Origin: Agromyces sp. S2-1-8 | GTDB taxonomy: Bacteria > Actinomycetota > Actinomycetes > Actinomycetales > Microbacteriaceae | Direction: 5' to 3' | NCBI RefSeq assembly: GCF_021129215.1 | Contig: NZ_JAJOLP010000001.1 | Span: 3,782,001 to 3,846,000, forward strand | Length of the DNA stretch: 64,000 bases | Shown here: positions 2,077 to 59,456 of the stretch, one piece after another | Layout of the letters: each line of letters starts with the position of its first letter | Numbering within the stretch: position 1 is the first letter of the stretch | Program-made: the position numbers and the translations under genes | Notes under the pieces: model-generated | What the model was told of the DNA's origin: nothing | The model's input: the letters and a program-made list of their open reading frames with translations, nothing else | Databases searched by the model: none

Positions 2077-5000
2077 ATGCTCCAACGCGAGATTCCGCGC
2101 CGACGCGCCCTGCAGCTCGGCGGGCTCGTCGCACTGGCCCCGCTCGTGCCCCAGTTCCTCGCCGCCCAGCCCGCCGCCGCACTGATCGGCGGCCGAGCGG
2201 CGGCCGCCGCAGGCGGAGGCATCCCCGTTCCCGACCTCTCGCCCAAGGCGCTCTGGTACGGCACCCCCGCGACCGACTGGGAGACGCAGGCGCTGCCGAT
2301 CGGCAACGGGCGCCTCGGTGCGATGCTCTTCGGCAACCCCGACGAGGAGGTCGTGCAGTTCAACGAGCAGAGCCTCTGGGGCGGGCTCAACGACTACGAC
2401 AACGCCCTCGCCGGCAAGCCCGACGGCGCGTACGACACGAGCGTCACCGGCTTCGGCTCGTACCGCGACTTCGGCACCCTCACGATCGCGTTCGGCGCAC
2501 GACCCAAGGTCACCGCGCCCGGCGGCCCCTACAAGATCTGGGGTGCCGAAGACGTCGACAAGAGCTACGACGGCAATCCGCAGACGAAGTGGTGCATCGA
2601 CGGTCCGCCCGCGCACGTGCTCTGGCAGGCCGAACTGCCGAGCGCCGCCGTCGTCTCGTCGTACAGCTTCACGAGCGCGAACGACGTGCCCGCCCGCGAC
2701 CCGCAGGAATGGCGGGTGCTCGGCTCGAACGACGGCGGCACGTGGGCGACGCTCGACAGCCGCACCGGCGCACCGTTCGAGCAGCGCTTCCAGACGAAGA
2801 CCTACGAGTTCCAGAACACGACCGCCTACCGCTTCTACCGCGTCGACTTCGTGCCGAAGGCGGGGGTGAGCCACTTCCAGGTGTCCGAGATCGGGCTCGG
2901 CGGCGTCGAGCTGGCGGCGGGCGGCAGCGTCTACGTGTCGTCGCCGACGGGCCACGCCGATTCCCTCGTGGGCAGCGTCGACGGCGAGGCGTCCACCGTC
3001 TGGCAGGTCGCCGACGCCGGGTCGGGTGCCGCATGGCAGCTCGAGCTCGTCGCGAAGCGGGCCCTCACGGGGTACGTGCTGACGAGCGGACCCGACGCAC
3101 CCGGAGCCGATCCGCGCGACTGGGTGCTCGACGCCTCGAACGACGGGCTCGCGTGGAAGACCCTCGACACGAAGTCGGGCGTCGCGTTCGCCGCCCGCGG
3201 CGAGGCGAAGGCCTTCACGTTCGCGAACTCGACCGCCTACACCCGGTACCGCCTCACGTTCACGTCGCCCGGGGCGTTCCGCCTCGCGGGCGTCGCGTTC
3301 ACGGGCAGCGGCTACTCGACGCGCGGACAGCGCAACGTGGTCGGGTACCGGCGCGCACTCGACCCCACGGTCGGCGTTCACACCGCGCACTTCGCGACCA
3401 TCGGCGGCACCGTGCTGCGCGAGGCGTTCGCGAGCCGCGACGCCGACGTGGTCGTGCTGCGCTACACGAGCGACACCGCCGGCGCGCTGACGGGCACGAT
3501 CACCCTCGCCTCCGAGCAGGAGAACTCGCCGACGTCGGTCGACGCCGCGGCACGGCGCATCGGCTTCGCGGGCACGATGGCGAACGACCTCAGCCACGCG
3601 GCGACGGTGCGCATCGCCGAGACCGACGGCGAGGTGACGGCCGACGGCGGGGGCCTGCGGGTGTCGGGCGCCTCGGTCATCACGCTCCACCTCGACGCGC
3701 GCACCGACTACAAGCTCAGCGCCGCCGACGGGTGGCGCGGCGCCGCGCCCCAGCCGGGCATCGACGCCGCCCTCGAGGCGGCGGGCGGGCGCAGCTTCGA
3801 CGACCTGCACGACGAGCACGTCGCCCAGGTCTCGAAGCTCATGTCGCGTGCCGCGGTCGAATGGGGCGAGACGGATGCCTCGGTGCTGGCGCTGCCGACC
3901 ACGACGCGCCTCGCACGCTACGGGGCGGGCGAGTCCGACCCGACGCTCGAGCAGTCGATGTACGACTTCGGACGCTACCTGCTGCTGAGCTCGTCGCGGC
4001 CGGGCGGCCTGCCCGCCAACCTGCAGGGCCTCTGGAACAACTCGAACCAGCCCGCGTGGGCGAGCGACTACCACACCAACATCAACGTCCAGATGAACTA
4101 CTGGGGCGCCGAGACGACCGACCTGCCCGAGGCGCACGAGGCGCTCATCGCGTTCGTGCAGCAGGTCGCGGTGCCGAGCCGGGTCGCGACGCGCAACGCG
4201 TTCGGCGAGGACACCCGCGGCTGGACCGCCCGCACCTCGCAGAGCATCTTCGGCGGCAACTCGTGGGAGTGGAACACGGTCGCGAGTGCCTGGTACATGC
4301 AGCACGTGTACGAGCACTGGGCGTTCACGCAGGACAAGACGTACCTGCGCGACGTCGCCTATCCGATGATCAAGGAGATCTGCGAGTTCTGGCAGGACCG
4401 CCTCAAGGAACTGCCCGACGGCAGCCTGGTGGCGCCCGACGGCTGGTCGCCCGAGCACGGCCCGCGCGAGGACGGCGTGATGTACGACCAGCAGATCATC
4501 TGGGACCTGTTCCAGAACTACCTCGACTGCGCCGACGCCCTCGACGTCGACGCCGAGTACCGGGCGACCGTCGCCGACCTGCAGTCGCGGCTCGCGCCCA
4601 ACAAGATCGGCAGCTGGGGCCAGTTGCAGGAGTGGCAGACCGACCGCGACAGCCCGACCGACATCCACCGCCACACCTCGCACCTCTTCGCGGTGTACCC
4701 GGGCCGGCAGATCACGGCGGCCTCGCCCGAGCTCGCGGCGGCGGCGCTCGTGTCGCTCAAGGCCCGCTGCGGCGAGAAGGAGGGCGTGCCGTTCACCGCG
4801 GCGACCGTGTCCGGCGACAGCCGGCGCTCGTGGACGTGGCCCTGGCGCACCGCGCTCTTCGCCCGCCTCGGCGACGCCGAGCGCGCCGGCGTCATGGTGC
4901 GCGGCCTGCTCACCTACAACACGCTGTCGAACCTGTGGTGCAACCACCCGCCGTTCCAGCTCGACGGCAACTTCGGCATCACCGGCGCGATCGCCGAGAT

Positions 5001-5274
5001 GCTGCTGCAGAGCCACGACGGCGTCATCCGACTGCTGCCGGCGCTGCCCGCCGACTGGGCCGCGTCGGGGTCGTTCACGGGGCTGCGCGCCCGCGGCGGC
5101 TACTCGGTGAGCTGCGAGTGGAAGGACGGTGAGGTCGTCTCGTACGACGTCGTCGCCGACCGTGCGCCGAACATGTCGAACGTCACCGTCGTGGTGGGCG
5201 GCGAGCGCCGCAAGGTGAAGCCCGCGAACCCGACGGCCGGCAACCCGATGCGCGACCTCGGACCGGCCGCCTGA
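2077..5274 (+). CDS. Secreted GH95 alpha-L-fucosidase with two inserted F5/8C-like domains
   Basis: A 1065-residue exported glycoside hydrolase of family 95, which hydrolyses alpha-1,2-linked L-fucose with inversion. The N-terminus has a Tat-like signal (RRRALQLGG, then Ala-rich). The GH95 N-domain opens with '[15 protein letters not shown]' (about residues 73-87) and is interrupted at about 145-413 by two discoidin (F5/8 type C)-like modules ('[18 protein letters not shown]', '[17 protein letters not shown]') before resuming. Catalytic positions by analogy with Bifidobacterium AfcA are N668/N670 ('[11 protein letters not shown]'), E793 ('DGWSPEHGP') and D963 ('QLDGNFG'). The extra modules explain the length compared with about 780 residues for plain GH95. 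Monocistronic, ending at a bidirectional hairpin. Other alpha-L-sugar specificities in GH95 remain possible. Confidence 0.9.
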
Positions 5275-5294
5275 CGCTTCGCTCCACCCGCAGC

Positions 5295-5336
5295 GATGGC
5301 GGATGCCTCGGGCATCGACCCGAGGCATCCGTCATC
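5295..5336. terminator. Bidirectional hairpin terminator
   Basis: Stem GGATGCCTCGGG (5301-5312), loop CATCGA, stem CCCGAGGCATCC (5319-5330), extended by GATGGC/GTCATC. It sits between the convergent fucosidase and GNAT genes and contains a head-to-head pair of the window-wide GGATGCC motif. Confidence 0.8.
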
Positions 5337-5337
5337 G

Positions 5338-5850: not shown

Positions 5851-5954
5851 GCAGCCAGTCTCGCAGCGGCGCACCCCCGCCTTCGACGATGAGCCCGCCC
5901 GCGAGGCGTCCGCAACCGCTGGCGGCTGTCGGCGGTTGCGGCCAAGATGACCGC

Positions 5955-6938: not shown

Positions 6939-7928
6939 TCAGAGCATCGCCCCCACGAGCGCCTCGCCGAGCGGCGTGCGCAGGTGCATCACGCGGGCGC
7001 CGTCGCGGGCGGAGGCGATGAGCCCGCCCTCCCGCAGCACGCCGAGATGATGCGAGGCGGTCGAGACCGCGAGCCCGACGTCGGCGGCGACCTGCGAGGT
7101 CGTGCGCGCGGTGTGCGCCCCGAGCAGGATCTCTGCGCGCGCGGCCCCGATGAGCGCTCCGAGCGCCGCCGCGGTCGACGCCGGGTCGCGCGCCCACGTC
7201 TCGGTGACGCCGCGCGCCGGGTAGAACACGGTGGGCTGCGCGGGCGGCTCGGTGAGCACCATGCACCCGAACGACGACATCACCGAGGGCACGAGCACGA
7301 GCCCCGACCCCCGGCAGTCGAGCGCCTCGCGATGCAGGCGCAGCTCGACCCGCACGGCGTCGTCGCTCCAGCTCACCGAGGGATGCAGCTCGCCGGCCAT
7401 CGCCCCGACCCCGGCGGTCGCGATGCGCCGCGAACGCACCGCGATGTCGGCCCGCAGCAGCCGCTCGAGCTGCGTCCACACGGGCGCGAGCACCGCCGCC
7501 CACACCTCGCTCCACGCGTCGGCGATCATCGCACGCGCCCGCTCGGGCTCGTCGATCATGCGCCGGATCGCCTGCTGCCGCGCGCCTTCCGACCGCGCGA
7601 CCATCTTGTTGAGGTCGACGAGCATCGGCTCGACGGGCGCGACGCGCATCCTGGCCGCCTCCTCCTCGGGTTCGAGGTCCCAGCCCGGCTCCGAGGTGAG
7701 GAAGTCGGGCATGTACCCGTCGACGCCGATCACCACGGCGAGCAGTTCGAACGCCTCTCGGGGCACGCGGCCGCGCACCGCGCGGAGCCATCCCCACTGC
7801 AGCGGGTGGGCTTCGGGCCGCTGCAGCACGCGCACCGCGTGACTGAGCTCGTGACCGGGCGAGATCCCGAACCGGATCGCCGAGATGTCGCCCGGGGCCA
7901 GCCGGAACTCGACGAAGTTTCGATCCAC
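6939..7928 (-). CDS. ArsR-type regulator with N-terminal DUF5937-like domain
   Basis: A 329-residue regulator. The C-terminal 80 residues form a winged helix of the ArsR/SmtB type ('TSQVAADVGLAVSTASHHLG', then 'LREGGLIASARDGARVMHL'). The long N-terminal part ('FGISPGHELSHAVRVL') resembles the DUF5937 domain found upstream of such helices in actinobacteria. The GTG start at 7928 is supported by TAGTGT six bases upstream (leaderless). A perfect 20-bp palindrome covers the start codon, pointing to autoregulation. No metal-binding cysteine motif is seen in the HTH, so metal sensing is unlikely. Divergent from the cupin/DUF4287 pair, a possible target. Confidence 0.85.
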   Translation of the reverse strand: MDRNFVEFRLAPGDISAIRFGISPGHELSHAVRVLQRPEAHPLQWGWLRAVRGRVPREAFELLAVVIGVDGYMPDFLTSEPGWDLEPEEEAARMRVAPVEPMLVDLNKMVARSEGARQQAIRRMIDEPERARAMIADAWSEVWAAVLAPVWTQLERLLRADIAVRSRRIATAGVGAMAGELHPSVSWSDDAVRVELRLHREALDCRGSGLVLVPSVMSSFGCMVLTEPPAQPTVFYPARGVTETWARDPASTAAALGALIGAARAEILLGAHTARTTSQVAADVGLAVSTASHHLGVLREGGLIASARDGARVMHLRTPLGEALVGAML

Positions 7929-7936
7929 ATCGAAAC
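7917..7936. promoter_or_regulatory. Palindromic operator overlapping the ArsR start codon
   Basis: Perfect 8-bp inverted repeat GTTTCGAT-CCAC-ATCGAAAC. The GTG start lies in the centre and the -10 hexamer TAGTGT overlaps the upstream arm by two bases, so bound repressor would cover the transcription start of its own leaderless gene. Confidence 0.7.
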
Positions 7937-7940
7937 ACTA
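7935..7940 (-). promoter_or_regulatory. -10 box TAGTGT of the ArsR-type gene
   Basis: Six bases before GTG 7928; overlaps the palindrome at 7917-7936. Confidence 0.5.
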
Positions 7941-8045
7941 CAGCGACGGGATGCCGCGGGCCGAGGCTGTTCGCAGACGAAACCGCCCGATCGGCCCGAG
8001 CACCGCCCCCGCGACTCGCGCCGCGGCATCCCAGAACCGGACCAA

Positions 8046-8070
8046 CCGAACCGAACCGAACCGAACCGAG
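8046..8070 (+). repeat. CCGAA pentanucleotide tandem repeat
   Basis: Four perfect CCGAA copies (8046-8065) followed by CCGAG and preceded by the imperfect unit ACCAA. The run ends directly at the Shine-Dalgarno GAGGAG of the cupin gene, so copy-number change would alter the leader of that gene. Confidence 0.8.
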
Positions 8071-8079
8071 GAGCAGAGC

Positions 8080-8475
8080 ATGAACGCCGCCGAGATCACC
8101 CTGACGCCCACCATGACCCCGCCCGTCACGCCCGTCGTCGTGCCGGCCGACGCACTCCGCATCGGCACCGGTCGCACGCGCCGATTCGTCGGCCTCGAGC
8201 ACGGCGCCCGCATCTCGTACTTCTTCGTCGACAACGAGCCCGGCCAGGGCGCCGACCTGCACTGGCACCCCTACAGCGAGACGTGGATCGTGCTCGAGGG
8301 CACCGCGCGCATCACCGTCGGCGACACCGAGCTCATCGCCCGCGCCGGAGACACCGCCACCGCGCCCGCCGGAGTGTGGCACGGTTTCAAGAACGTCGGC
8401 GAGGGGCGCCTGCAGCTCATCGGCATCCACGCCGCCGAGACGATCGTGCAGACCTGGGCCGACGAATCGGACTGA
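8080..8475 (+). CDS. Cupin-2 domain protein
   Basis: A 131-residue single-domain cupin. The two conserved motifs are visible: 'LHWHPYSETWIVLEGTARI' (His/His/Glu metal-ligand set, about residues 63-81) and 'ATAPAGVWHGFKNVGEGRL' with the fourth ligand His. Probably a small metal-dependent isomerase, dioxygenase or sugar-binding protein; the substrate is not predictable. ATG 8080 follows GAGGAG at 6-7 bases. Longer upstream readings in the same frame are unsupported because they run through the CCGAA repeat. Likely cotranscribed with the DUF4287 gene 38 bp downstream. Confidence 0.88.
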   Translation: MNAAEITLTPTMTPPVTPVVVPADALRIGTGRTRRFVGLEHGARISYFFVDNEPGQGADLHWHPYSETWIVLEGTARITVGDTELIARAGDTATAPAGVWHGFKNVGEGRLQLIGIHAAETIVQTWADESD

Positions 8476-8513
8476 GTCACCCCGCACGCCGACCACTCGA
8501 GAAGGAGAACCCC

Positions 8514-8804
8514 ATGTCGTTCCAGGCCTACCTCGACAACATCGAGACGAAGACCGGCCTCACGCCGCGCCAGTTCGTCGAGCTCGCGCGCGAGCGCGGC
8601 TTCGACGAGACCACCAAGGCGACCCCCATCGTCACGTGGCTCGCTGACGACTACGGCCTCGGCCGCGGCCACGCGATGGCGCTCGTGCACGTCATCACGA
8701 AGGGCCCGCAGATCAGCACCAAGCACGTCGGCACCGACGGCGTGCATCGCGACACGACCGACACGCTCTGGCTCGACGGCAAGGCCACGAACCCCAACCC
8801 CTGA
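8514..8804 (+). CDS. DUF4287-family protein
   Basis: A 96-residue protein matching the DUF4287 pattern ('SFQAYLDNIETKTGLTPRQF', then 'GLGRGHAMALVHVI'), a small helical family common in soil bacteria and without a known function. GAAGGAG lies seven bases before ATG 8514. The C-terminal 'HVGTDGVHRDTTDTLWLDG' tail looks disordered. It follows the cupin gene on the same strand and is probably in its operon. Confidence 0.88.
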   Translation: MSFQAYLDNIETKTGLTPRQFVELARERGFDETTKATPIVTWLADDYGLGRGHAMALVHVITKGPQISTKHVGTDGVHRDTTDTLWLDGKATNPNP

Positions 8805-8818
8805 AGACAGCGCATCGA

Positions 8819-8858
8819 GTGTGCACTCGTCGCCCGGATTCGCGCCAGGAGTGCACAC
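8819..8858. terminator. Inverted repeat between convergent genes
   Basis: Perfect 10-bp arms GTGTGCACTC (8819-8828) and GAGTGCACAC (8849-8858) with a 20-nt loop, between the DUF4287 gene and the response regulator. Probably a shared terminator; the long loop makes this less certain. Confidence 0.5.
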
Positions 8859-8899
8859 CCGGGCGGATGAGGCCGGCGCGCGGGCACGCGCGGGTCGGC

Positions 8900-9553
8900 T
8901 CAGCTCGAGCCGCTGCGATAGCGGTGCTCGGGTCGGCCGGCGCTGCCGTAGCGGAGCGACACCGTGACCGCGCCGCGCGCGGCGAGCTCGGCGAGATGCC
9001 GCTGGGCGGTCGCGCGCGAGACCCCCGCGCGCTCGGCGACCTCGACGCTCGACGCCTCACCGCCGTCGGCCAGGGCGTCGAGGATCAACTGCTGGGTGCC
9101 CGAGCGCGACGAGGTCGGCGCCGCACCGTGCAGCACGCCGAGCGCCCGATCGATCGTGTCCTGCGCGAGCGGCGACTCGACCGCGAGCAGGTTGCGGTAC
9201 CGCAGGTACCCGTCGAGACGCTCCTGCAGGGTGCGGGCCTCGAACGGCTTCACGAGGTAGTGCAGCGCCCCCGAGCGCAGGGCACGACGCACCGTCGCCG
9301 CGTCGTTCGCGGCACTCAGCACGAACCGGTCGAGCCCGCTCTCACGGGCGAGCTCGATGCCGTCGCCGTCGGGCAGGTAGACGTCGACGAGCAGCAGCTC
9401 GGGCCGCCAGTCGCGGATCGCGGTGCGCGCCGACGCGATGTCGCGCACGGGCGGCAGCGCCTCGAACCCGGGCCTGGCCGAGACGAGGTCGTGGTGGATC
9501 CCCGCCACCCTGAAGTCGTCGTCGACCACGAGCACCCGCACGTCTGCGGTCAT
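8900..9553 (-). CDS. CitB/DcuR-type response regulator
   Basis: A 217-residue response regulator. The receiver domain occupies residues 1-120, with acidic pocket D11-D13, phosphoacceptor D57 in 'LLLVDVYLPDGDG' and the conserved Lys in 'YLVKPFEARTL'. The C-terminal helix-turn-helix ('SSVEVAERAGVSRATAQRHL') is the CitB/DcuR type. ATG 9553 overlaps the kinase stop as TGATG, so translation is coupled. With the cognate kinase it should activate the divergent CitMHS transporter gene in response to external citrate or a related di/tricarboxylate. Confidence 0.92.
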   Translation of the reverse strand: MTADVRVLVVDDDFRVAGIHHDLVSARPGFEALPPVRDIASARTAIRDWRPELLLVDVYLPDGDGIELARESGLDRFVLSAANDAATVRRALRSGALHYLVKPFEARTLQERLDGYLRYRNLLAVESPLAQDTIDRALGVLHGAAPTSSRSGTQQLILDALADGGEASSVEVAERAGVSRATAQRHLAELAARGAVTVSLRYGSAGRPEHRYRSGSS

Positions 9554-11256: not shown

Positions 11257-11365
11257 GCGGCTCCCTCCGCGCTCGTCGGCCCGATGGTGCGCGATCCGAT
11301 GATGCATCGTCGGCCGACGAAGCACGCGCCCCGAGGCATCCGGCCCGGCACGTCGTGAGCAGAAT

Positions 11366-11392
11366 GCGCAGAACCAACGCTACGCGCAGAAC
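11366..11392. promoter_or_regulatory. Direct repeats GCGCAGAAC, candidate CitB-type site
   Basis: Two identical copies of GCGCAGAAC (11366-11374 and 11384-11392), 18 bp apart, in the gap between the kinase gene and the citrate transporter. Direct repeats suit a dimeric response regulator controlling both promoters. A near-palindrome CGATGATGCATCGTCG lies nearby at 11297-11312. Confidence 0.45.
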
Positions 11393-11491
11393 GCGGCGCA
11401 ATGCGAGTTATCGGCCGGCCGGCCTCCGCAGTCCGTACGCTCCTCGAGACCCACCAGCCCCGTGCGGGCGCTCACTGACAAGGACGTCACC

Positions 11492-12982: not shown

Positions 12983-13002
12983 CGCCCGCGGTGCCGCCGC
13001 CC

Positions 13003-13032
13003 GGCCCGGTTCGGCTCAGCCGAGCCGGGCCG
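13003..13032. terminator. Hairpin terminator overlapping the CPBP gene end
   Basis: Near-perfect arms GGCCCGGTTCGGCT and AGCCGAGCCGGGCC with almost no loop, between the convergent transporter and CPBP genes. It spans the CPBP stop codon at 13016. Confidence 0.6.
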
Positions 13033-14023: not shown

Positions 14024-14030
14024 CTTGGCC

Positions 14031-14036
14031 ACGCTA
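14031..14036 (-). promoter_or_regulatory. -10 box TAGCGT of the CPBP gene
   Basis: Seven bases before ATG 14023; no Shine-Dalgarno is present. Confidence 0.45.
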
Positions 14037-14134
14037 CCGAGTCGTGCGCAGCACCGGATCCGCCGCAGGACGGAGATCGCCGGCGCATGAGCGCCGCCCC
14101 GAGGCATCCGCGCGGCCGTCGGCCGGCCGGCCGG

Positions 14135-15220: not shown

Positions 15221-15276
15221 TGGATCGTTCCTTCAGCGGTTGCGGTGGAGATGGCGCGACGGGTTCCCGGCGCGGT

Positions 15277-27670: not shown

Positions 27671-30600
27671 TCAGCGCGGACCCGACGCGGCGCGCCGATC
27701 GCGAGACCGGCCGAGCGCGTACGCGCCGGCGCCGGCCAGCAGCAGCGCGATCGCGGCGAGCATCGGCTGCAGCGCCTCGAAACCCGAGGCGGGCAGGGCC
27801 CCGGCGTCCGGCGGCTCGGGCGCGGGCGGCTCGGGGGGTTCGGGCGGCTCGGGCGGCGGCACCTGCGAGTTCGCGAACGTGCACACGACCGTCTCGCCGA
27901 GCCCGAGCGCGATCACTGCGTTCGCGCCGTCGATCGTCGGCTCCGACGCCCCGCCGGTGCACGTGACCCCGTCGAGCGCCCACCCGGCGGTCTCGAGCTC
28001 GGTCACCCGATAGTCGCCGGGCGCGAGCGGCGCGGTGGTGAACGGCTCCGAGGCATCCGACAGAGCGAAGCCCGCTTCGTCGCCGCCGTCCGGCCCCCAT
28101 TCGAAGCCGAACTCCTGCGACGAGCCTGGCGGTGTCGTCGACTTGTCGACGACGATGACGCCCCATTCGGTGTTCGTGAACGTGCAGGTGACGGTCTCGC
28201 CGGGGTCGAGCCCGATCGAGCCGACGAGGTCTGCCGTCGTCGACGGGGTGCCGTCGGCGGCGCCGTCGACGCAGGCGAGCCCGGTCGTCTCATAGCCGTC
28301 GCGCGCGAGCTCCTCGACGGTGTAGCTGCCGGGAACGACCCCGTCGAACGCTGCCGCCCCCGTGCCGTCGCTCGTCGTGATCGTGAACTCGGGCGGTGAC
28401 CGCCAGTCGCCGGTGAAGCCGAACTCGCCGTCGGCCCCGTCGACGGCCTTCACCACGACGATGCGGCCGTAGGCGGAGTTCACCGCACTGCAGGCGCCCA
28501 CGTCGCCGGGGTTCACCGAGAAGTCGCTGAGATCGTCGAGCACGAACGGGGGGCCGCCGTCGCCCGGCGTGATCGTGCAGGTGAGCGCGCCCTCGATCCA
28601 GTCGGGGCGGTCGACCTCGACGAACGAATAGCGCACGCCCGGGATGATCTGCGGCAGCTCGACCTCCGCGCCGCCGCCCGCGGTCGTGACGCCCACGGTG
28701 ATCGGGTCGATCGCGTGGTCGAGGTCGGTGAGCACGAACTCGAACTCGCCGTCGCCGCCGAGCGAGGTCTTGGTGAGCGCGCCCGTGCCGGCCGTCGCCC
28801 GGTTCGTCATCGTGCACTCGAGGTCCAGACCGACGGGCGCCGTGAACTGCAGCCCGGGCGCCTCGAGGTCCTCGTCCGCGAGCCCCGTGCAGGCGACGTC
28901 GCTCGACCAGCCCGACGCACCCGACTCGGTGATCGAGTAGCTGCGGCCGGGCATCAGCGCACCCCAGGTCACGATCTCGCCCGACTGCCCGACACCGCTG
29001 ACGACCTTCGGGCTCGACTCGCCCGTCGGCACCGGATCGATGCCGAGGTCGAACGACCACGCGAAGTCGTCGCCGATGCCCGCGGCCACCTTCGCGACGC
29101 TGATCGAGGATGCCTCGGCGGTGTTCTCGACCGTGCACTCGACGGCCTGTCCCGGCGTCGGTGAGAACTGCAGTCCCGCCGTAGCGGGATCGAGGTCCTC
29201 GAGGCCGCAGACGGGTGCACCGCGGGACCACCCCGCCTGGGCGGCGCCCGATTCGCGCAGAGTGTACGTCGCACCCGGCACGAGCTCGTCCCACTGCACG
29301 GTCGGCGCTGCCTGGGTCGCGGTCCGACCGATGGTGGTGCCGTCGGGTCCGACGAGGTCGAACGCGAACGACCACGCGAGATCCGCATCGGCGCCCGCGA
29401 CCGTCTTCGTCAGGGTGAGCGAGGCCGTGTCGGCACGGTTGGTGAAGAAGCAGACCGCCGCGTCGGTGTCGGCGAGGTCGACGACGACGCCGCGGCCGTC
29501 CGCGCTCGGCTGCCATTCGGCGCCGTTGCAGTCGAGTCCTTCGAGCGTCCAGCCGTCGACGTCCGCAGGCTCCGTGACGGTGTACGACCCGGGCTCGAGC
29601 GACCCGAACGACCGGAGCGCGACGTTCGGCGGAGTCGAGTCGCCGTTGAGCTGGAATCCCGTCGGCGCCGCGTCGGGCGGCGTGAACACGAAGTCGAACA
29701 GCTGGTCGTACTCGACCGGCACGGTGCGCTTGATGACGGCGATCGAGCCCGGAAGGCTGTTCGTGAAGAAGCAGCGCACGGTCTCGCCCGGCAGCACGGT
29801 GAAGTCGATGCTGCGCGCAGCGGTGTCGCCCGTGTGATCGGTGCCGCCGTAGGTGCACGAGAGGTCGGCGAGCCGGGTCGGCGGATCGGCCGCGTCCGAG
29901 TCCTCGCTGAGCGTGTACTCGCCGGGCGGCACGCCCGTGAACGTCTCCTCGTAGAGTGTCCCGTCGCCGTTCGGCACCTCGATGTCGAAGGCCTCGCCAC
30001 CGGGCAGGTCGCTGGCGAACGAGAACGTCCGCCCGTCGACCCCGTGCGCCTCCTTCGACACGATGACCGTGCCGAGCTGCGTGTTCGTGAACGTGCACGT
30101 GATGTTCTCGCCCGCCGCCGGCGTCACGGTCGCCGAGCGACCGTCGACCTCGGCGCCGCCGCCGTCGCACGCGATGTCGGGCGCGAGCCAGCCGTCGGCC
30201 GCCGCCTCGGTGATGGTCACGTCCTCGCCGACGGGCACGGCGAACGAGCGGCGATCGCCGTCGCCGAGCGTGACGTCGTCCTGGCCGGTCACCTCGAACC
30301 CGAAGGCACCGGCCGCCCCGTCGGGCAGCGTCTGCTTCTCGACCGTGACGACGGCCGCGGCATTCGTGATGACGCAGTCGGTCGTGTTCTCGGGTGAGAC
30401 GAGGAACGCGTCGGACGGGTCGTCGATGACGAACTCCTGCGGCGGACCGCCGCCGAGCGGGATCGCCGTGCAGACGATCGACTGGAGCGACCACGGCGGT
30501 GGGATCGACGTCTCGGTGAGGTGGTACTGCGAGCTCACGAGCACGTCCTCGTACGTCTTCGTCTCGCCGGCCGCGAGCGTGTCGACGATCGAGTCGACGG

Positions 30601-31792: not shown

Positions 31793-32593
31793 TCAGCCGA
31801 CCGCGAGGAACTCCGCCGCCGCCTGCCGGAACACCCGCGATCCGGGCGTGTTGAAGTGGTGCCGCCGCGGCACTTCGACGAAGGTGCCGTTCGGCGTCGC
31901 CGCCGCCAGGCTGCGCGACTGCTCGACGATGGCGTCCTCCGTGCCGGTCGCGAAGAGCACCGGCTGGCGCGGCGGGTCGGCCGGGTCGGGGTCGGCGTCG
32001 CCGAGTCGCATGCCCTCGGCGAGCGCGATGAGCGCGCGCAGGTCGTTGCCGGGCACGCGCTCGGCGAGGGTCACGTAGTTGCGGGTGACCTGGTCGTCGA
32101 CGGGCGCGCCCTCGTCGACGTAGGCGCGCGCCTGGTCGATCTGCAGGCGGGCGAGCGGCCGCCCGTCGGGGATGCCGCCGAGCACCGCGCGTGACACGTG
32201 CTCGGGCGCCTGCACCGCGAGCTGCCAGCCCACGCGCCCGCCGAGCGAGTACCCGAGATAGCGCACCCCCTCGACCAGCAGGTACGTGTCGAGCACGGTC
32301 ACGAGGTCGTCGACGAACGCCGACATGCGGTAGGCGGATGCCTCGTGCGGCGTGCCGCTCGCACCGTGGCCGCGCTGATCGACGCCGATCACCCTGAAGC
32401 CGGCCGCCGTGAGGTCGCGCACCATGCCGGTGTCGACCCAGTTGTCCTTGCAGCTCGAGGCGAACCCGTGCACGCACAGCACGGTCGGCGCGTCGTCGTC
32501 GCCCCAGGTGTAGGTCGCGATGCGGGTGCCGTCGGCGGCCATCACGTACTGCGGCTTCGGCATCACGGTTCGCGCCGGCAACGAGGCATCCAT
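31793..32593 (-). CDS. Alpha/beta-hydrolase
   Basis: A 266-residue alpha/beta-hydrolase. Oxyanion loop 'CVHGFASSCKDNW', then 'VIGVDQRGHGASG', nucleophile elbow 'YLGYSLGGRVGW' (Ser), a late acid in 'LFATGTEDAIV' and the His in 'VPRRHHFNTPGS'. Esterase, lipase or C-C hydrolase are all possible. Start at ATG 32593 is favoured by CAGAAT seven bases upstream; ATG 32602 is in frame. No signal peptide. Confidence 0.87.
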   Translation of the reverse strand: MDASLPARTVMPKPQYVMAADGTRIATYTWGDDDAPTVLCVHGFASSCKDNWVDTGMVRDLTAAGFRVIGVDQRGHGASGTPHEASAYRMSAFVDDLVTVLDTYLLVEGVRYLGYSLGGRVGWQLAVQAPEHVSRAVLGGIPDGRPLARLQIDQARAYVDEGAPVDDQVTRNYVTLAERVPGNDLRALIALAEGMRLGDADPDPADPPRQPVLFATGTEDAIVEQSRSLAAATPNGTFVEVPRRHHFNTPGSRVFRQAAAEFLAVG

Positions 32594-32639: not shown

Positions 32640-33194
32640 TCAGCCCTCGAAGTCCTCGGGGTCGACGTCGTCGAGGAACCGCTTGAACTCCTCGAGCTTC
32701 GACTCGTCGATCGGCATGGCGGCTCCGCCCGAGGCATCCCCGTGGTGCGACGACCCGGAGGGCTCGGACGCCGCCTCGCCGGCGAGCTCCGCCGGGATTC
32801 CGGCGTCCTCGAGCACCTGCTCGGCGATCCAGATCGACGCCTCGGACCGCACGGCGAGCGCGATCGCGTCGGACGGCCTGGCATCGACGATGCGCGGCCC
32901 CTGCCGGGTGACGAGCGTGAGCTCGGCGTAGAACGTGCCCTCGTCGAGCTTCGTCACCTCGACCCGCTCGAGGCGGGCGCCCAGGGTGCCGAGCAGCGTC
33001 GTCATGAGGTCGTGCGTGAGCGGGCGCGGGGTCGACTCGCTGCTGAGTGCGATGAGGATCGAGTTCGCCTCGTTCCGGCCGATCCAGATGGGCACGACGA
33101 CCGGCCCGTCCGGGTCGTCGGCGAGCGGACGCAGCAGCACGAGATGCTGCCCCGACTGGTCGAGCGCGATGCCGAGCACCCGCACCTGGATCAT
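32640..33194 (-). CDS. Bifunctional nuclease-family (DUF151) protein
   Basis: A 184-residue protein with a complete DUF151 domain ('VVVPIWIGRNEANSI', 'RPLTHDLMTTLLGTLGARLERVEV', 'IVDARPSDAIALAVR') over residues 1-130, then a disordered, acidic tail. The family was described as a bifunctional DNase/RNase in plants and occurs throughout actinobacteria. ATG 33194 follows a GGAGGA at about six bases. Divergent from the DUF2255 gene. Confidence 0.9.
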   Translation of the reverse strand: MIQVRVLGIALDQSGQHLVLLRPLADDPDGPVVVPIWIGRNEANSILIALSSESTPRPLTHDLMTTLLGTLGARLERVEVTKLDEGTFYAELTLVTRQGPRIVDARPSDAIALAVRSEASIWIAEQVLEDAGIPAELAGEAASEPSGSSHHGDASGGAAMPIDESKLEEFKRFLDDVDPEDFEG

Positions 33195-35144: not shown

Positions 35145-35147
35145 CGT

Positions 35148-35191
35148 GACGAAGGGGCGGATGCCTGGGCCCAGGCATCCGCCCCTTCGTC
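35148..35191. terminator. 44-bp perfect palindrome, bidirectional terminator
   Basis: Zero-loop palindrome with 22-bp arms; left arm GACGAAGGGGCGGATGCC then TGGG. It starts three bases after the YdeI stop and serves the convergent transporter too. The core again has GGATGCC and GGCATCC head-to-head. Confidence 0.85.
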
Positions 35192-35228
35192 GCTCGGTCG
35201 TCGCGGCACGATGAGCCGCTCGCCGGCG

Positions 35229-37489: not shown

Positions 37490-38016
37490 ATCAGCTCGAG
37501 CCGGCGAGTGAGCCGCAGCACGATCAGGAGCGGCACGATGCCGATCACGCCGAACGAGATGTCGATCAGCTGCCAGCCGAGCGGGATGCCTCGGATCGAG
37601 CCCGCGATCAGCGCGAGCGGCACGACGCCGAGGCAGGCGAGCATCCCCCACTGGGTGACCCAGACGTTGCGCACCGGATCGCGGTAGGGACCGATGAATG
37701 CCGCCGCGATGACGAGGTGCGCGAACGCGAGCCAGTCGGTGCCGTACGCGAGGAAGGGGTGCGCACGGTAGCTCTCGCGCAACGCCTCGTCGACGCGCTG
37801 CACCCACTCGACGACGCCCGGCGCCCAGTCCGCGGCACCGAGGCGTTGCAGCACCTCGGCACCGAACGCGAGCTCGACGTCGAGCGGGAAGGCGGTGACC
37901 CCGCTCACCACGAGCCCCGCGATCATGACGACCAGCCAGATCCGGATCCACCGCAGGAGGTGCCGCGATCCGGTCGGCGGAGCGAGGCGGCCATCGGTGA
38001 GGGCGGGCTGTTCCAT
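37375..38016 (-). CDS. Hypothetical four-TM membrane protein, 3' end overlapping the HAD gene
   Basis: A 213-residue protein of no recognised family. Four hydrophobic segments: 'IRIWLVVMIAGLVVSGVTAF', 'FLAYGTDWLAFAHLVIAAAF', 'WGMLACLGVVPLALIAGSIR' and 'QLIDISFGVIGIVPLLIVL'. The last 38 residues ('IQAATSAASSP...') are encoded antisense to the HAD gene and look like an unstructured read-through extension; the conserved part probably ends near 'RLTRRLELIQ'. TAGGCT seven bases before ATG 38016 indicates a leaderless start. Confidence 0.75.
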   Translation of the reverse strand: MEQPALTDGRLAPPTGSRHLLRWIRIWLVVMIAGLVVSGVTAFPLDVELAFGAEVLQRLGAADWAPGVVEWVQRVDEALRESYRAHPFLAYGTDWLAFAHLVIAAAFIGPYRDPVRNVWVTQWGMLACLGVVPLALIAGSIRGIPLGWQLIDISFGVIGIVPLLIVLRLTRRLELIQAATSAASSPMSVNTSPAPAADRAAGSVRVGPSGAKP

Positions 38017-44956: not shown

Positions 44957-45943
44957 CTACGCCTTCCGCGCCTCGAGCGCGGCGATCAGCTGCGGCACGA
45001 CCGTGAACAGGTCGCCGACGATGCCGAAGTCGGCGATCTCGAAGATGGGGGCGTCGCCGTCCTTGTTGATCGCGACGATCGTCTTCGCCGTCTGCATGCC
45101 GGCCCGGTGCTGGATCGCGCCCGAGATGCCGAGTGCGATGTAGAGCTGCGGCGACACCGAGACACCGGTCTGGCCGACCTGGTACGACTGCGGCACGTAG
45201 CCGGCGTCGACCGCCGCGCGCGAGGCGCCGACCGCGGCGCCGAGCACGTCGGCGAGCTGCTCGACGAGCGCGAACTGCGCCTCCGAGCCGAGACCGCGGC
45301 CGCCCGACACGACCTTCGCCGCGCCGCGCAGTTCGGGACGAGACGACGTGACGACCGCCTCGTCGACGCGCCCGATGGCGGCGGCCCGACGACCGGATGC
45401 CTCGACCGCGAGCTGCTCGGTCGAGACCGGCTGCGCCTCGGCGCGGGCATCGACCGCGCCCTCGCGTACGGTGATCACCGGGGCGCCCCACGTGACCGCG
45501 GAGTCGACGTTGTAGGCGCCGCCGTAGACCGAGTGATGCGCGACGACCCCCTCGGCGTCGCGCGAGACCGCGACGGCGTCGACCGCGAGACCCGAGCGCG
45601 AGCGGGCCGCGTAGCGGCCGGCGACCTCGCGCCCCTCGATGGAGTTCGGGACGAGGATCGCGTCGGGTCGCACGAGCTCGGCGGCCGCGGCGAGCGCGTC
45701 GGCCCCGGGCACCGTCACCTGCGCACCGGCCTCGGCGCCCTCGGCGACGAGCACATGGGTCGCCCCGAGCGCGGCGGCATCGGCCGCGGCCTGCTCACCG
45801 GCGCCGGCCGCGCCGACGATGAGGGCGACCGGAGTGCCGACCCCGGCGGCGGCGCCGAGCAGTCCTGCGGCGCTCTTGGTGAGCTCGCCAGAGGGGGTGA
45901 GGTCGAGGAGGACGAGGATCGAGTCGGCCTGGAAGTCAGTCAT
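44957..45943 (-). CDS. etfA: Electron transfer flavoprotein alpha subunit
   Basis: A 328-residue ETF alpha chain. The C-terminal FAD domain is diagnostic: '[21 protein letters not shown]', '[27 protein letters not shown]' and '[25 protein letters not shown]', spread over residues 210-315. The N-terminal domain ('[17 protein letters not shown]') pairs with EtfB. AAAGGGG precedes ATG 45943. It takes electrons from acyl-CoA dehydrogenases, two of which are encoded on either side. Eleven bases after etfB. Confidence 0.95.
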
Positions 45944-49778: not shown

Positions 49779-51536
49779 ATGACCACCCCCACGTTCAACG
49801 CTCCGACCACCGCCGAACGACAGATCTCCACGACCGTGCTCGTGATCGGCACCGGCGGCTCGGGGCTGCGCGCCGCCATCGAGCTCGCCGAGGCGGGTGT
49901 CGACGTGCTCGCGCTCGGCAAGCGCCCGAAGTCCGATGCCCACACCTCGCTCGCGGCCGGCGGCATCAACGCAGCCCTGGCGACCATGGACGCCGACGAC
50001 AGCTGGCAGCAGCACGCCGCCGACACGCTCAAGGAGAGCTACCTGCTCGCCGACCCGCGCACCGTCGAGACCGTGACGAAGGGCGCGGCACGAGGCATCC
50101 AGGATCTCGAACGCTACGGAATGCCGTTCGCCCGCGAGGCCGACGGCCGCATCTCGCAGCGCTTCTTCGGCGCGCACACGTACCGCCGCACGGCGTTCGC
50201 GGGCGACTACACGGGGCTCGAGATCCAGCGCACGCTCGTGAACCGCGCGGCGCAGCTCGAGGTGCCGATCCTCGACACCGTGTACGTCACCCGCATCCTC
50301 GTGAACGACGACGGCGCGGTGTTCGGCGCGTACGGCTTCGACCTCGAGAACGGGACCCGCTACCTCATCCACGCCGACGCCGTCATCCTCGCGGCGGGCG
50401 GGCACAACCGCATCTGGCGGCGCACCTCGTCGCGGCGCGACGAGAACACGGGCGACTCGTGGCGGCTCGCCGTCGAGGCGGGCGGACGCGTGCGCGACCC
50501 GGAGCTCGTGCAGTTCCACCCGTCCGGCATCATCGAGCCCGAGAGCGCGGCAGGCACCCTCATCAGCGAGGCGGCCCGCGGCGAGGGCGGCATCCTCACC
50601 AACGGCCTCGGTGAGCGCTTCATGGACAAGTACGACCCCGAACGCCTCGAGCTGTCGACCCGCGACCGCGTCGCGCTGGCCTGCTACACGGAGATCAAGG
50701 AGGGCCGCGGCACCCCCAACGGCGGCGTCTGGCTGGATGTCTCGCACCTGCCCCGCGAGACGATCATGCAGCGGCTGCCGCGGGTGTACCAGACGATGCT
50801 CGAGCTGCAGATGCTCGACATCACGAAGCAGCCCATCGAGATCGCGCCGACCGCGCACTACTCGATGGGCGGGGTCTGGGTTCGGCCCGACGACCACGGC
50901 ACCGACGTGCCCGGGCTCTACGCCATCGGCGAGGCATCCAGCGGCCTGCACGGAGCCAACCGTCTGGGCGGCAACTCGCTCATCGAGCTGCTCGTCTTCG
51001 GACGCATCGTGGGACAGGCCGCCGCCGCGTACTCGCGGTCGCTTCCGGCGCAGCAGCGCTCGGCCGCCGCGGTCGAGACCGCCCGCGACGAGATCTCCGC
51101 ACTGCTGGGGTCGGACGGCGCCGAGAACGTGCGCGCCCTGCAGCGCGCCATCCGCGACACGATGACCGAGCATGCCGGCGTCGTGCGCGACGAGGAGGGC
51201 CTGCGCGCCGGCCTCGCCGAGCTCGACGGGATCGAGGCGCGCATGGCCGACATCGGCGTGCACCCCGACATCGCGGGCTACCAGGACCTCGCGCACGCGT
51301 TCGACCTCAAGTCCGCCGCGCTCGCGGCCCGCGCGACGCTCGAAGCCGCGCTCGAGCGTCGCGAGACCCGCGGCTGCCACAACCGCAGCGACTACCCCGC
51401 CACGGATGCCTCGCTGCAGGTGAACCTCGTGTGGTCGCCCCAGACCGGGGTGACGCGCGAGGCGATCCCGCCGATCCCGGAGGAGATCGCGGGGCTCATG
51501 CGCGAGGTGTCGACGGTCGGCAAGCTCGTCGAGTAG
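49779..51536 (+). CDS. Fumarate reductase/L-aspartate oxidase-like flavoprotein, orphan
   Basis: A 585-residue FAD enzyme of the succinate dehydrogenase/fumarate reductase flavoprotein superfamily. FAD loop 'VLVIGTGGSGLRAAIELAEAG', flavin-linking region 'HTSLAAGGINAALATMD', substrate loop 'LVQFHPSGIIEPES' with 'LISEAARGEGGILTN', and C-terminal 'IAPTAHYSMGGV' and 'LYAIGEASSGLHGANRLGGNSL'. The histidine that covalently holds FAD in true SdhA/FrdA is not in the usual 'HT(V/A)AAQGG' form but His precedes Thr-Ser here, so covalency is open. No iron-sulfur or membrane subunit adjoins, so it may be a soluble oxidase such as L-aspartate oxidase. LysR-controlled. Confidence 0.87.
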   Translation: MTTPTFNAPTTAERQISTTVLVIGTGGSGLRAAIELAEAGVDVLALGKRPKSDAHTSLAAGGINAALATMDADDSWQQHAADTLKESYLLADPRTVETVTKGAARGIQDLERYGMPFAREADGRISQRFFGAHTYRRTAFAGDYTGLEIQRTLVNRAAQLEVPILDTVYVTRILVNDDGAVFGAYGFDLENGTRYLIHADAVILAAGGHNRIWRRTSSRRDENTGDSWRLAVEAGGRVRDPELVQFHPSGIIEPESAAGTLISEAARGEGGILTNGLGERFMDKYDPERLELSTRDRVALACYTEIKEGRGTPNGGVWLDVSHLPRETIMQRLPRVYQTMLELQMLDITKQPIEIAPTAHYSMGGVWVRPDDHGTDVPGLYAIGEASSGLHGANRLGGNSLIELLVFGRIVGQAAAAYSRSLPAQQRSAAAVETARDEISALLGSDGAENVRALQRAIRDTMTEHAGVVRDEEGLRAGLAELDGIEARMADIGVHPDIAGYQDLAHAFDLKSAALAARATLEAALERRETRGCHNRSDYPATDASLQVNLVWSPQTGVTREAIPPIPEEIAGLMREVSTVGKLVE

Positions 51537-51556: not shown

Positions 51557-51591
51557 CGAAGGGCCGGATGCCCGAGGCATCCGGCCCTTCG
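51557..51591. terminator. Bidirectional hairpin terminator
   Basis: Perfect 16-bp arms CGAAGGGCCGGATGCC and GGCATCCGGCCCTTCG with loop CGA, between convergent genes; carries the GGATGCC/GGCATCC pair. Confidence 0.88.
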
Positions 51592-52259: not shown

Positions 52260-52265
52260 GATCGG

Positions 52266-53909: not shown

Positions 53910-54587
53910 ATGGTTGACGTGAACGCCCAGCTCGACGCCGTCACGCGCAGCATCGAGACGAAGGAGGTCGACAGCGAGCGCACGTACGTGCAGTTGCTCA
54001 CCCAGACCTACCCCTCCCCCATCGACGACGTGTGGGACGCGGTGACGAGCGCCGAGCGCATTCCGCGTTGGTTCCTGCCGATCTCGGGCGACCTGCGACT
54101 CGGCGGCACGTACCAGCTCGAGGGCAACGCGGGCGGCGAGATCAGGAGCTGCGAGCCGCCGCGCGACGGCACGGCCGGCTACTCGGTCACGTGGGGCATG
54201 GGCGTCGGCGAGCCGGCCATCGTGAGCGTTCGCCTCATCGAGGTGGATGCCTCGCACACCCGTTTCGAGCTCGAGAACGTCGCCACGGCGACGAGCCTGC
54301 CCGACGGCATGTGGGAGCAGTTCGGGCCGTCGGCGACCGGCATCGGCTGGGACCAGGGGCTCCTCGGCCTCGCGCTGCACTTCTCGGGCGGCGACGACGG
54401 CATCTCGCCCGAAGAGGCCCCGGCCTGGGTCGCGTCGGATGAGGGGAAGGCGTTCATGCGCCGCTCAGCCGACGCATGGGCCGCGGCTCACGAGCGCGAC
54501 GGGGTCAGCGCAGAGGTCGCGAAGGGTGCGTCCGATCGCACGTATGCGGCGTACACCGGTGATGCCGCGGGGGCCGAGATGGGGTGA
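53910..54587 (+). CDS. SRPBCC/AHSA1-domain protein
   Basis: A 225-residue protein with an Aha1/START-like domain: 'LLTQTYPSPIDDVWDAVTSAERIPRWFLPISGDLRLGGTYQLEGNAGGEI' over residues 29-78, and 'GWDQGLLGLALHF' as the long C-terminal helix. Such domains bind hydrophobic ligands. GAAGGAG precedes ATG 53910. Cotranscribed with the ArsR gene, which it may help by sensing or removing a ligand. Confidence 0.9.
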   Translation: MVDVNAQLDAVTRSIETKEVDSERTYVQLLTQTYPSPIDDVWDAVTSAERIPRWFLPISGDLRLGGTYQLEGNAGGEIRSCEPPRDGTAGYSVTWGMGVGEPAIVSVRLIEVDASHTRFELENVATATSLPDGMWEQFGPSATGIGWDQGLLGLALHFSGGDDGISPEEAPAWVASDEGKAFMRRSADAWAAAHERDGVSAEVAKGASDRTYAAYTGDAAGAEMG

Positions 54588-57809: not shown

Positions 57810-58096
57810 CTTCATCTCCGTCGAGAAAGTTTGTTGACCATCTAAAGAAAGTAATTGAGAGGACACTAGCGCCCCGCGCGTCATTCGACAAGGCCCATGC
57901 CGCCGCCGCTCGCCGGACCGAGACACATCTCGGCGACGATGGTGGCGCACGCACACGCCTCGAGCTCTGCATGATCGCCGGAGGAGGGTGCGGAGCCATC
58001 GCCGGAGGCACGATCATCGGCCTGGCAATGGAGGAGATCGCCGGTCGCATTCTGCGAGTCGACGTGTGTGTCGGTTGCTGTGCGTAGGCTCGCATC
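57810..58096. other. Intergenic region upstream of the GH20 gene
   Basis: The first 60 bp (57820-57870) are AT-rich with 'TTTGTTGACCATCTAAA', a plausible operator half-pair for the GH20 promoter. The rest is GC-rich with no gene that I can support; it ends at the leaderless promoter of the MmcQ gene. Confidence 0.45.
58085..58090 (+). promoter_or_regulatory. -10 box TAGGCT of the MmcQ/YjbR gene
   Basis: Six bases before GTG 58097. Confidence 0.5.
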
Positions 58097-58486: not shown

Positions 58487-58558
58487 TCGAGCCCCGCGGG
58501 GAGCTGACTCCTCCGAGAGCTCCAGTCGTTGTCTTGGGTGAACTCCGTGCGGGATCGA

Positions 58559-58885
58559 TCAGCCGAGCGGGACGCGGAAGTAGAGATCCCAGTGCAGTTT
58601 GCATCCGGGGTTGAACGGCGCCGCGCAGGACGGACATGCGTGCGCGTCCGCATACTCGGCGATGGTCAGCAATGTTCCGCACACCCCGCAGAGCACCGCC
58701 CGTTCCTGAAATTCCTCGGTCCGCCACTGGGCAGCCGGATGATCAACGGCCTCGCTGTGACAGAGATGACAGGGATAGAAGTCGCCGCAGCACGCGAACT
58801 CGATGGCGATGACGTCGAGATCGGTTCGGTAGTGAACGCAGCGGGTTTCAGCATCGACGACCGCCCCGCGCACCAGCGGCCTCAC
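58559..58885 (-). CDS. CHY-type zinc-finger protein
   Basis: A 108-residue protein with a complete CHY zinc finger: 'TRCVHYRTDLDVIAIEFACCGDFYPCHLCH' over residues 15-44, followed by 'LCGVCGTLLTI' and 'ACPSCAAPFNPGCKLHWDLYF'. All Cys and His ligands for three zinc ions are there. Bacterial CHY proteins are short and of unknown role; the yeast relative Hot13 works in mitochondrial zinc/disulfide handling. GTG 58885 overlaps the upstream stop as GTGA, so it is coupled to the two-TM protein. Confidence 0.88.
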   Translation of the reverse strand: MRPLVRGAVVDAETRCVHYRTDLDVIAIEFACCGDFYPCHLCHSEAVDHPAAQWRTEEFQERAVLCGVCGTLLTIAEYADAHACPSCAAPFNPGCKLHWDLYFRVPLG

Positions 58886-59298
58886 GGCGACCCCGAACCG
58901 TGTTCGAGCTCGTCGGCGTCTGGCCGCACGTCCTCGATGTAGCGTCCGCCGATCGTGGCGATTCCGAAGGTGGCGGGCTTGCCTCGCAATCGGAGGATCA
59001 CTTCGACGATCATCATGGTGCACATCGTCAGGGTGCCGAGGATCCATACGACGACCGTCACCCACATCGGCGGGTACACCCAGTCGGGTGCGCCGAAGAT
59101 GACGCCGAAGACGATGATCTCGAGCAGGATGAGCGCAAGTCCGATGAGGAACACCGCGCCCGACACCAGATAGATCGACCGCGCGGGGTCGCCCTTGTAG
59201 ATGAGTTGGAAGCGGGGGCGCCTCACGGGCGCGCGGTTGACCGCGGCTGCGGCTCGCTTCGTCCGCTTCTTGCGACGACGAGCATTCGATCTCCCCAC
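58882..59298 (-). CDS. Two-TM hypothetical membrane protein coupled to the CHY protein
   Basis: A 138-residue protein of no recognised family. A very basic N-terminus ('ARRRKKRTKRAAAAVNR') is followed by two hydrophobic segments ('IYLVSGAVFLIGLALILLEI' and 'WVTVVVWILGTLTMCTMMIV') and a charged tail. GTG 59298 is chosen from GAGGGAG upstream. Its four-base overlap with the zinc-finger gene suggests the two proteins act together at the membrane. Function unknown. Confidence 0.75.
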   Translation of the reverse strand: MGRSNARRRKKRTKRAAAAVNRAPVRRPRFQLIYKGDPARSIYLVSGAVFLIGLALILLEIIVFGVIFGAPDWVYPPMWVTVVVWILGTLTMCTMMIVEVILRLRGKPATFGIATIGGRYIEDVRPDADELEHGSGSP

Positions 59299-59426
59299 AA
59301 CTCCCTCTCCTCGATCGGCGTGCGGCCGTCGGACTCGACCCGAGTCCCGCGTCGAACCTACCGTGGCGAGCCTCCTCGAACGTACGCCGACGTTGAATCC
59401 CCCTGCGTCCGTCGCCGTGCGCCAGA

Positions 59427-59456
59427 AGAGGTGGATGCCTCGCGGCATCCACCTCT
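59427..59456. terminator. Hairpin terminator
   Basis: Perfect 13-bp arms AGAGGTGGATGCC and GGCATCCACCTCT with loop TCGC, 20 bp after the nrdF stop. It carries a GGATGCC/GGCATCC pair. Confidence 0.85.

Follow-up and report, generated by a model that had tools for sequence, protein, structure and literature searches.

A strand-neutral, over-used 10-mer of Agromyces with dialects across Microbacteriaceae, a candidate DNA-uptake sequence

Introduction

To our knowledge, uptake sequences have been described only in two Gram-negative families. The DNA uptake sequences (DUS) of Neisseriaceae are set out with their dialects, their counts and a 5'-CTG-3' core in PMC3630211, and the uptake signal sequence (USS) of Pasteurellaceae is an over-represented short signal tied to competence and found family-wide (PMC1939737, PMC1626085). 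The actinobacterium Micrococcus luteus undergoes natural transformation with the help of comEA-comEC and tad genes (PMC8467076); its comEA-comEC and tad clusters are described in PMC8467076 and PMC6370729. Within two M. luteus papers, including PMC8467076, no match by term to sequence-specific uptake was found. Among the matches listed from the open-access literature, outside which lie most subscription papers and all preprints, there was no uptake sequence in Actinobacteria and no report of the present word in that role. Here we describe the 10-mer GGATGCCTCG, over-used in a 64,000-nucleotide stretch of the genome of Agromyces sp. S2-1-8 (contig NZ_JAJOLP010000001.1, positions 3,782,001 to 3,846,000; hereafter the window). 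We propose, with a probability of roughly 0.68, that it is the DNA-uptake sequence of this Agromyces, occurring in dialects and serving as a self label like the DUS of Neisseria and the USS of Haemophilus, in a monoderm phylum.

Like the DUS of Neisseriaceae, GGATGCCTCG is an over-used 10-mer with about a thousand copies on near-equal strands, with family dialects and an invariant short core. It differs in its unrelated sequence, which has a GGATG core and is rich in G+C, in its host among the monoderm Actinomycetota, in the pilus type (Tad/Flp here, type IVa with ComP there) and in that uptake is here predicted. With the USS of Pasteurellaceae it shares over-representation of a short word across one family. 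The USS has AT-rich flanks, whereas GGATGCCTCG has none (at most 0.23 bits per position), and the sequence and the phylum also differ. The likeness to M. luteus is that of an actinobacterium with the same type of gene set, comEA-comEC plus tad clusters. Chi, the FtsK-orienting polar sequences (KOPS) and architecture-imparting sequences are protein-read, polarised words; they too are short and abundant on chromosomes, but GGATGCCTCG is strand-neutral and gathers between genes.

Abundance, sharpness and codon use

An earlier note, made from the letters of the window alone, had described a strongly over-used 10-mer with nine copies in each orientation, and exact counting bore this out. GGATGCCTCG has 18 exact copies in the window, nine on each strand, against a mean of 0.41 and a maximum of 3 in 100 dinucleotide shuffles, and ranks first by z-score among the window's 10-mers (an order-3 Markov model predicts 0.79 copies). 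All the copy coordinates given by the note were right except one, 51414, which is correctly 51404 (Table 1). The shorter core GGATGCC occurs 60 times in the window (shuffle mean 12.7). Whole-genome counts close to the Markov expectation, which the note had named as an outcome speaking against its claim, did not emerge: the genome (4,099,562 bases in two contigs, C1 and C2) carries 1,386 copies in 4.1 Mb, 688 forward and 698 reverse, far beyond expectation. The reversed word, a weak control as it contains TAG, has no copy in the whole genome. In a 444-kb sample made up of 19 stretches of 20 kb, one per 200 kb, plus the window, 160 copies were found where an order-4 Markov model predicts 6.5.

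A logo of these 160 sites with 30 bp on each side confines the information to 10 positions, the flanks reaching at most 0.23 bits. One-base variants were not generally enriched in the sample; those that were are GGACGCCTCG (19 observed, 5.3 expected), GGATGCCGCG (51 observed, 15.8 expected) and a small number of others that differ at positions 6, 8 and 10. A mobile or structured repeat, whether a repetitive extragenic palindrome (REP), an insertion sequence (IS) or a CRISPR array, was rejected because conservation ends at 10 bp.

The codon phase of the word, with 92 of the 108 coding copies of the 444-kb sample in one phase on each strand, would suit an artefact of codon-pair bias, composition or a mobile repeat. 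Genes were called with our own simple gene caller, by which 89% of the sample is coding. When synonymous codons were permuted within genes 200 times, the mean fell to 3.2 copies and the maximum to 8, so that codon usage does not explain the coding excess; an enrichment accounted for in full by codon-pair bias, the other adverse outcome foreseen in the note, was thus not seen. Its statement that the word draws on disfavoured codons holds: in the 444-kb sample 10.5% of Asp codons are GAT and 5.4% of Ala codons are GCA. Asp-Ala-Ser is nevertheless spelled GAT GCC TCG in 40 of 87 cases (2.3 expected) and Glu-Ala-Ser is spelled GAG GCA TCC in 52 of 97 (0.6 expected). On the Markov, codon-permutation and codon-usage results a codon or composition artefact was rejected. 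The word is also denser outside genes than within them, its conservation stops at 10 bp, and the base substitution that distinguishes two of its dialects is rare after other 5-mers (51 of 4,005 comparisons; see below), leaving an artefact of any of these kinds a negligible probability as long as the gene calls are broadly right.

Orientation, placement and hairpins

The 160 sites of the sample divide 80:80 between the strands. The start of C1 is not at dnaA. Origins were assumed in steps of 50 kb, and for every assumed origin the sites lacked replichore bias, the largest absolute leading-minus-lagging difference being 10 of 160 sites against a random mean of 21.7. A strand-polarised word of the Chi or KOPS kind was rejected on this ground, in agreement with the strand-bias argument of the earlier note: E. 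coli Chi is oriented and KOPS-type words are polarised along replichores, and both are disfavoured because GGATGCCTCG has no polarity.

Copies gather between genes. In the 444-kb sample 108 lie in genes, 51 between genes and one straddles a gene boundary, which gives 1.08 copies per kb of intergenic DNA and 0.27 per kb in genes, a fourfold difference. This sample has six convergent pairs at an offset of 10-40 bp where 0.45 would be expected; four are intergenic and two lie in genes. There is one divergent pair. The four head-to-head pairs that the note had placed in hairpin stems in the window do all fold as hairpins, with energies of -28 to -49 kcal/mol and z-scores of -7.8 to -11.0; by our gene calls three are flanked by convergent genes and the fourth closely follows the end of a gene. 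At least 8 of 27 intergenic stems in the Agromyces sample contain GGATG, in a scan that takes the first stem and not the longest; the same scan of nine other genomes yielded between 1 and 9 stems per genome, not enough to be used. In Neisseria, inverted pairs of DUS act as terminators.

These results bear on a Chi-like recombination signal, dense in the genome and read by an end-resection nuclease with which its dialects would co-evolve. Such a signal would fit the high genome-wide density, the dialects that differ between species and the depletion in mobile DNA described below, but the lack of replichore bias runs counter to it, and neither the fourfold intergenic preference nor the inverted hairpin pairs are expected of Chi. 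We regard it as rather unlikely.

Dialects across the family

Dialects around a GGATG core occur in Agromyces and in other Microbacteriaceae, and within the order the dialect CGGATGCCGC is raised in Microbacteriaceae only. Exact GGATGCCTCG is present in all 60 Agromyces genomes searched, with 104 to 1,549 copies, the lowest counts lying little above chance. Across 249 genomes of the family, a sample spanning at least 85 genera, many genera have almost no copies of it and some besides Agromyces reach high counts. A low-count Agromyces (G021) has the other word CGGATGCCGC, 57 copies against 2.3 expected in 80 kb, and two further low-count Agromyces have the dialects GCGGATGCCG (G005; 30 against 2.1 in 60 kb) and GGATGACG (G006; 46 against 10.2 in 60 kb). 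Fourteen other genomes of the family were analysed over 40 to 80 kb each, one (G099, under 3 kb) having been left out. Eight of them have a clear GGATG word, for example CGGATGCCGC (29 observed, 1.3 expected), ACGGATGC (45 and 4.0), CGGATGCGC (19 and 3.0) and GGATGACCCG (11 and 0.7). Three have other words containing GGAT (G110, G127, G145), and in the stretches of the remaining three (G102, G104, G075) there was none or nothing clear.

Named loci of about 20 kb near comEC extend this picture; 80 were drawn from 578 relatives, of which 70 were used and ten left out. GGATGCCG occurs 541 times against 95 expected in 28 pooled loci of Microbacterium, CGGATGCCGC 36 times against 2.6 in 10 loci of Cryobacterium and GGATGCGCG 11 times against 0.8 in Gulosibacter, with dialects also in Salinibacterium, Homoserinibacter, Herbiconiux and others. 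Two Frigoribacterium loci (L220, L252) have a different word, AGGAGGCGCG, at 12 copies against 0.3 expected in 41 kb, which may be a dialect that has drifted far; these loci are also enriched in GGATGCCG (22 against 4.6). Nothing clear was seen in single loci of about 20 kb from Labedella, Agreia, Okibacterium, Microcella, Antribacter and one further genus.

CGGATGCCGC, the sole dialect counted outside the family, is raised in eight genomes of the family at 58 to 2,441 copies, though hardly so in the lowest, G221. It is not raised in 111 genomes from 19 other families of the order, where its 2 to 100 copies for the most part differ from the count of the reversed control by no more than about threefold, small counts reaching about fivefold. 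Four genomes of other families, a small sample of 20 kb each, had no comparable word.

Two side observations were made in these scans. Four loci (L237, from Microbacterium excoecariae, L216, L258 and L259) show little or no excess of GGATGCCG (2 against 1.8, 6 against 2.0, 5 against 2.9 and 5 against 2.4) despite having comEC; losses of specificity or of competence are possible. In G138 (L072-L073; C1, 1-40000) the word scan picked up six palindromes of the TTTCACGTGAAA type, which resemble parS sites, and the scan would therefore also catch a known kind of protein site.

Dialect switching in place

Twenty Agromyces genomes were aligned to this one around comEC, over one 20-kb region. Dialect groups were set from the word analysis and whole-genome counts: of the 21 genomes, eight have the TCG dialect (GGATGCCTCG) and seven the GCG dialect (GGATGCCGCG), and four mixed and two other genomes were left out. 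Where a TCG genome has GGATGCCTCG and GGATG is conserved, the GCG genome reads GGATGCCGCG in 46 of 78 comparisons, the same word in 23 and another in 9, whereas the same change after other 5-mers followed by CCTCG was found in 51 of 4,005. The reciprocal direction, from GCG to TCG, gave 46 of 112 against 51 of 3,901 in the control. Between genomes of the same dialect the change is rare, with 1 of 117 comparisons among TCG genomes and, for the reverse change, 4 of 175 among GCG genomes. In a tree built from 10,756 columns, from which every GGATG context had been taken out, the TCG dialect falls in at least two branches, one of which consists of this genome and G049; the node parting these two from the other TCG, the GCG and the mixed genomes has a support of 1.0.

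A site for a protein that organises the chromosome or associates with the nucleoid would share the chromosome-wide occurrence in both orientations and the scarcity on C2 (below). Set against this are the form of the word, a sharp non-palindromic 10-mer scattered in codons and at gene ends, and its concerted switching in place together with the occurrence of TCG in at least two branches, which points to a drive by copying; a structural site alone would not provide one. We consider such a site very unlikely.

Depletion in mobile DNA

Over 80 kb of the smaller contig C2 (83.6 kb) there are two copies of GGATGCCTCG; the density of the chromosome would give about 29, and the composition of C2 itself 0.6. 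In part, C2 is similar to conjugation genes from named plasmids of actinobacteria, and no plasmid record covers 80% of the C2 stretch searched. The same tendency appears in other genera. CGGATGCCGC stands at 8.1 times expectation in Microbacterium chromosomal loci (104/12.9), 2.7 times in three Microbacterium phages (6/2.2) and 2.5 times in 50-kb parts of three plasmids, one from Microbacterium and two from Cryobacterium (4/1.6). The ratios for GGATGCCG are 5.7 in chromosomal loci, 3.0 in phages and 1.6 in plasmids.

The partial likeness of C2 to conjugation-type plasmid genes would suit a sequence that loads or guides a DNA translocase, like KOPS for FtsK or the TraB repeats in chromosome mobilisation, and actinobacterial translocases do recognise short repeats. 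Yet the sites divide evenly between strands and lack replichore bias, and C2 is itself depleted of the word; we give this explanation only a slim chance.

Competence and pilus genes

The genes that the earlier note had proposed looking for are present: comEA (SLBB and HHH_3 domains) and comEC (Competence and Lactamase_B domains) form a tandem next to a holA-like gene, and the genome also has pilus genes of the TadA type. The names holA, topA/tmk-like, tadC and Flp-type pilin are our own reading. Three T2SSE ATPase loci score above the cut-off, all of tad type.

All of ten genomes with one or two T2SSE ATPases have the type that lies beside topA/tmk-like genes, at 50-66% identity. Five of these have only that ATPase and many copies of CGGATGCC (G066, 1,772; G198, 1,415; G102, 1,319; G148, 1,224; G062, 1,090), against 124 to 207 for the reversed control in the same genomes, which makes the topA/tmk-side locus the candidate pilus. 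It encodes TadA, a T2SSF protein, a DUF4244 pilin and two proteins whose weak TadE/Tad matches fall slightly short of the curated cut-off. This TadA type is also present in G104, a genome without the motif (378 against 272 for the control).

Five proteins (ComEA, pilin, TadBC, TadE1 and TadE2) were scanned for alignment columns that separate the eight TCG from the seven GCG genomes. ComEA and TadE1 have none, and pilin, TadBC and TadE2 have one each, those in pilin and TadBC being exchanges among mostly hydrophobic residues. In TadE2 the residue X of a C-terminal A-X-ARAGP is Arg in 8 of 8 TCG and 0 of 7 GCG Agromyces, and R, S, S, S, T and R in six others; since five proteins were scanned, this covariation is a lead only. 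In these genomes Arg goes with the TCG dialect even though that dialect is found on two or more branches of the tree. The wider reading, that a whole Gram-positive family uses dialects of one uptake word, which Tad-type pili read with a small TadE/G-like minor pilin from the DUF4244 tad locus as the receptor, is unlikely.

Three side observations concern these genes in Agromyces. In one of the two genomes with divergent dialects mentioned above, G006, the comEC match is shortened and the surrounding 20 kb gave no match to ComEA; the other, G005, has an in-frame TGA in its TadBC match. In the present genome (L035; C1, 162001-182000) a third pilus cluster, of Flp/Cpa type and with a poor host-like coding score, lies at about 7100-13330 of a stretch whose first 14.9 kb are without a copy of the motif; it may have been acquired recently.

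A candidate uptake sequence

The earlier note had suggested DNA uptake or another protein-recognised motif. A protein-recognised genome motif is now well supported, and DNA uptake is the role that we infer. The dialects, the switching in place and the depletion in mobile DNA fit an uptake signal. Biased uptake with recombination would be expected to yield just such a word: sharp, evenly spread over the strands, differing in dialect across a family, exchanged in place when the dialect changes, and scarce in mobile DNA. We propose that a surface part of a natural-transformation machine reads GGATGCCTCG as a genome-wide self label. A TadA-driven pilus, most likely that encoded beside the topA/tmk-like genes, with its TadA, T2SSF protein, DUF4244 pilin and two TadE/G-like minor pilins, would bind double-stranded DNA carrying the word; ComEA and ComEC would import the bound DNA, and recombination would then replace resident alleles. 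As fragments with a good match would enter more often, matching alleles would be copied over non-matching ones and the word would build up at neutral sites such as gene ends and tolerant codons. A shift in the preference of the receptor would make existing sites drift to a new dialect, and paired copies may have been recruited as hairpins, probably terminators.

Several observations weigh against an uptake sequence. Competence of Agromyces is a prediction from its genes, and one tad cluster of this genome is split by an inserted element. comEC is present in 245 of 249 genomes of the family and in 58 of 60 Agromyces, and also in G104 and G075, where the motif is not visible, so that the machinery does not predict the motif; the presence of comEC and the number of T2SSE ATPases, both near-universal, were rejected as predictors. 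No column of ComEA separates the eight TCG from the seven GCG genomes, and ComEA was rejected as a dialect-specific receptor. The switching pairs all come from one 20-kb neighbourhood and are not phylogenetically independent, and of 211 T-to-G comparisons 133 lack a conserved GGATG core, from which it follows that sites also turn over. Phages retain a clear excess of GGATGCCG (58 against 19.6 expected) and are only partly depleted. Even spacing is claimed for some uptake words; here it was not significant (dispersion 0.60, P about 0.10), and the gaps between the first 100 forward sites (coefficient of variation 1.09) were not clearly more even than random.

If an uptake sequence is the right interpretation, this would be a further independent origin, in monoderm Actinomycetota and with a different pilus type, and DNA self-labelling for transformation would be seen to recur. 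In a family with many dialects and at least 85 genera in the present sample, and with two dialects recurring in one genus, models of receptor-genome co-evolution and the reader protein become testable, and adding the appropriate 10-mer could make these soil bacteria easier to transform.

Features of the window and minor observations

Table 1. Copies and head-to-head pairs of the word in the window (position 1 is its first nucleotide)
Feature	Position	Strand	Context
GGATGCCTCG copy	3873..3882	+	in gene 2077-5274(+)
Convergent exact pair, 5301-5310(+) and 5321-5330(-)	5301..5330	.	unbroken 20-pair stem with two G-U pairs, between convergent genes
GGATGCCTCG copy	11332..11341	-	intergenic
GGATGCCTCG copy	14100..14109	-	intergenic
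GGATGCCTCG copy	28049..28058	-	in gene 27671-31669(-)
GGATGCCTCG copy	29108..29117	+	in gene 27671-31669(-)
GGATGCCTCG copy	32336..32345	+	in gene 31793-32566(-)
GGATGCCTCG copy	32582..32591	-	intergenic
GGATGCCTCG copy	32730..32739	-	in gene 32640-33194(-)
GGATGCC core, head-to-head in hairpin stem	35159..35180	.	hairpin 35145-35195, between convergent genes
GGATGCCTCG copy	37584..37593	+	intergenic
GGATGCCTCG copy	45395..45404	+	in gene 44957-45943(-)
GGATGCCTCG copy	50091..50100	-	in gene 49779-51536(+)
GGATGCCTCG copy	50930..50939	-	in gene 49779-51536(+)
GGATGCCTCG copy	51404..51413	+	in gene 49779-51536(+)
Head-to-head, GGATGCC core 51566-51572(+) and full copy 51573-51582(-)	51566..51582	.	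hairpin between convergent genes
GGATGCCTCG copy	54245..54254	+	in gene 53910-54587(+)
Head-to-head, full copy 59433-59442(+) and GGATGCC core 59444-59450(-)	59433..59450	.	hairpin downstream of gene 59476-60498(-)

Elsewhere in the genome, an insert of about 6 kb splits tadC near its end in the second tad cluster, at about 12086-18040 of the stretch C1, 2145001-2165000 (L037). It carries a large serine recombinase with Resolvase and Recombinase domains and an open reading frame for an AAA-ATPase, and is followed by a tadC-like tail and an Flp-type pilin; it recalls elements that insert in competence genes. In another stretch (L017; C1, 1600001-1620000) a tandem array of 13 copies with a 24-bp period (GAACCAGCCTCAGGAGCC...) begins at 7051 and is distinct from the motif.

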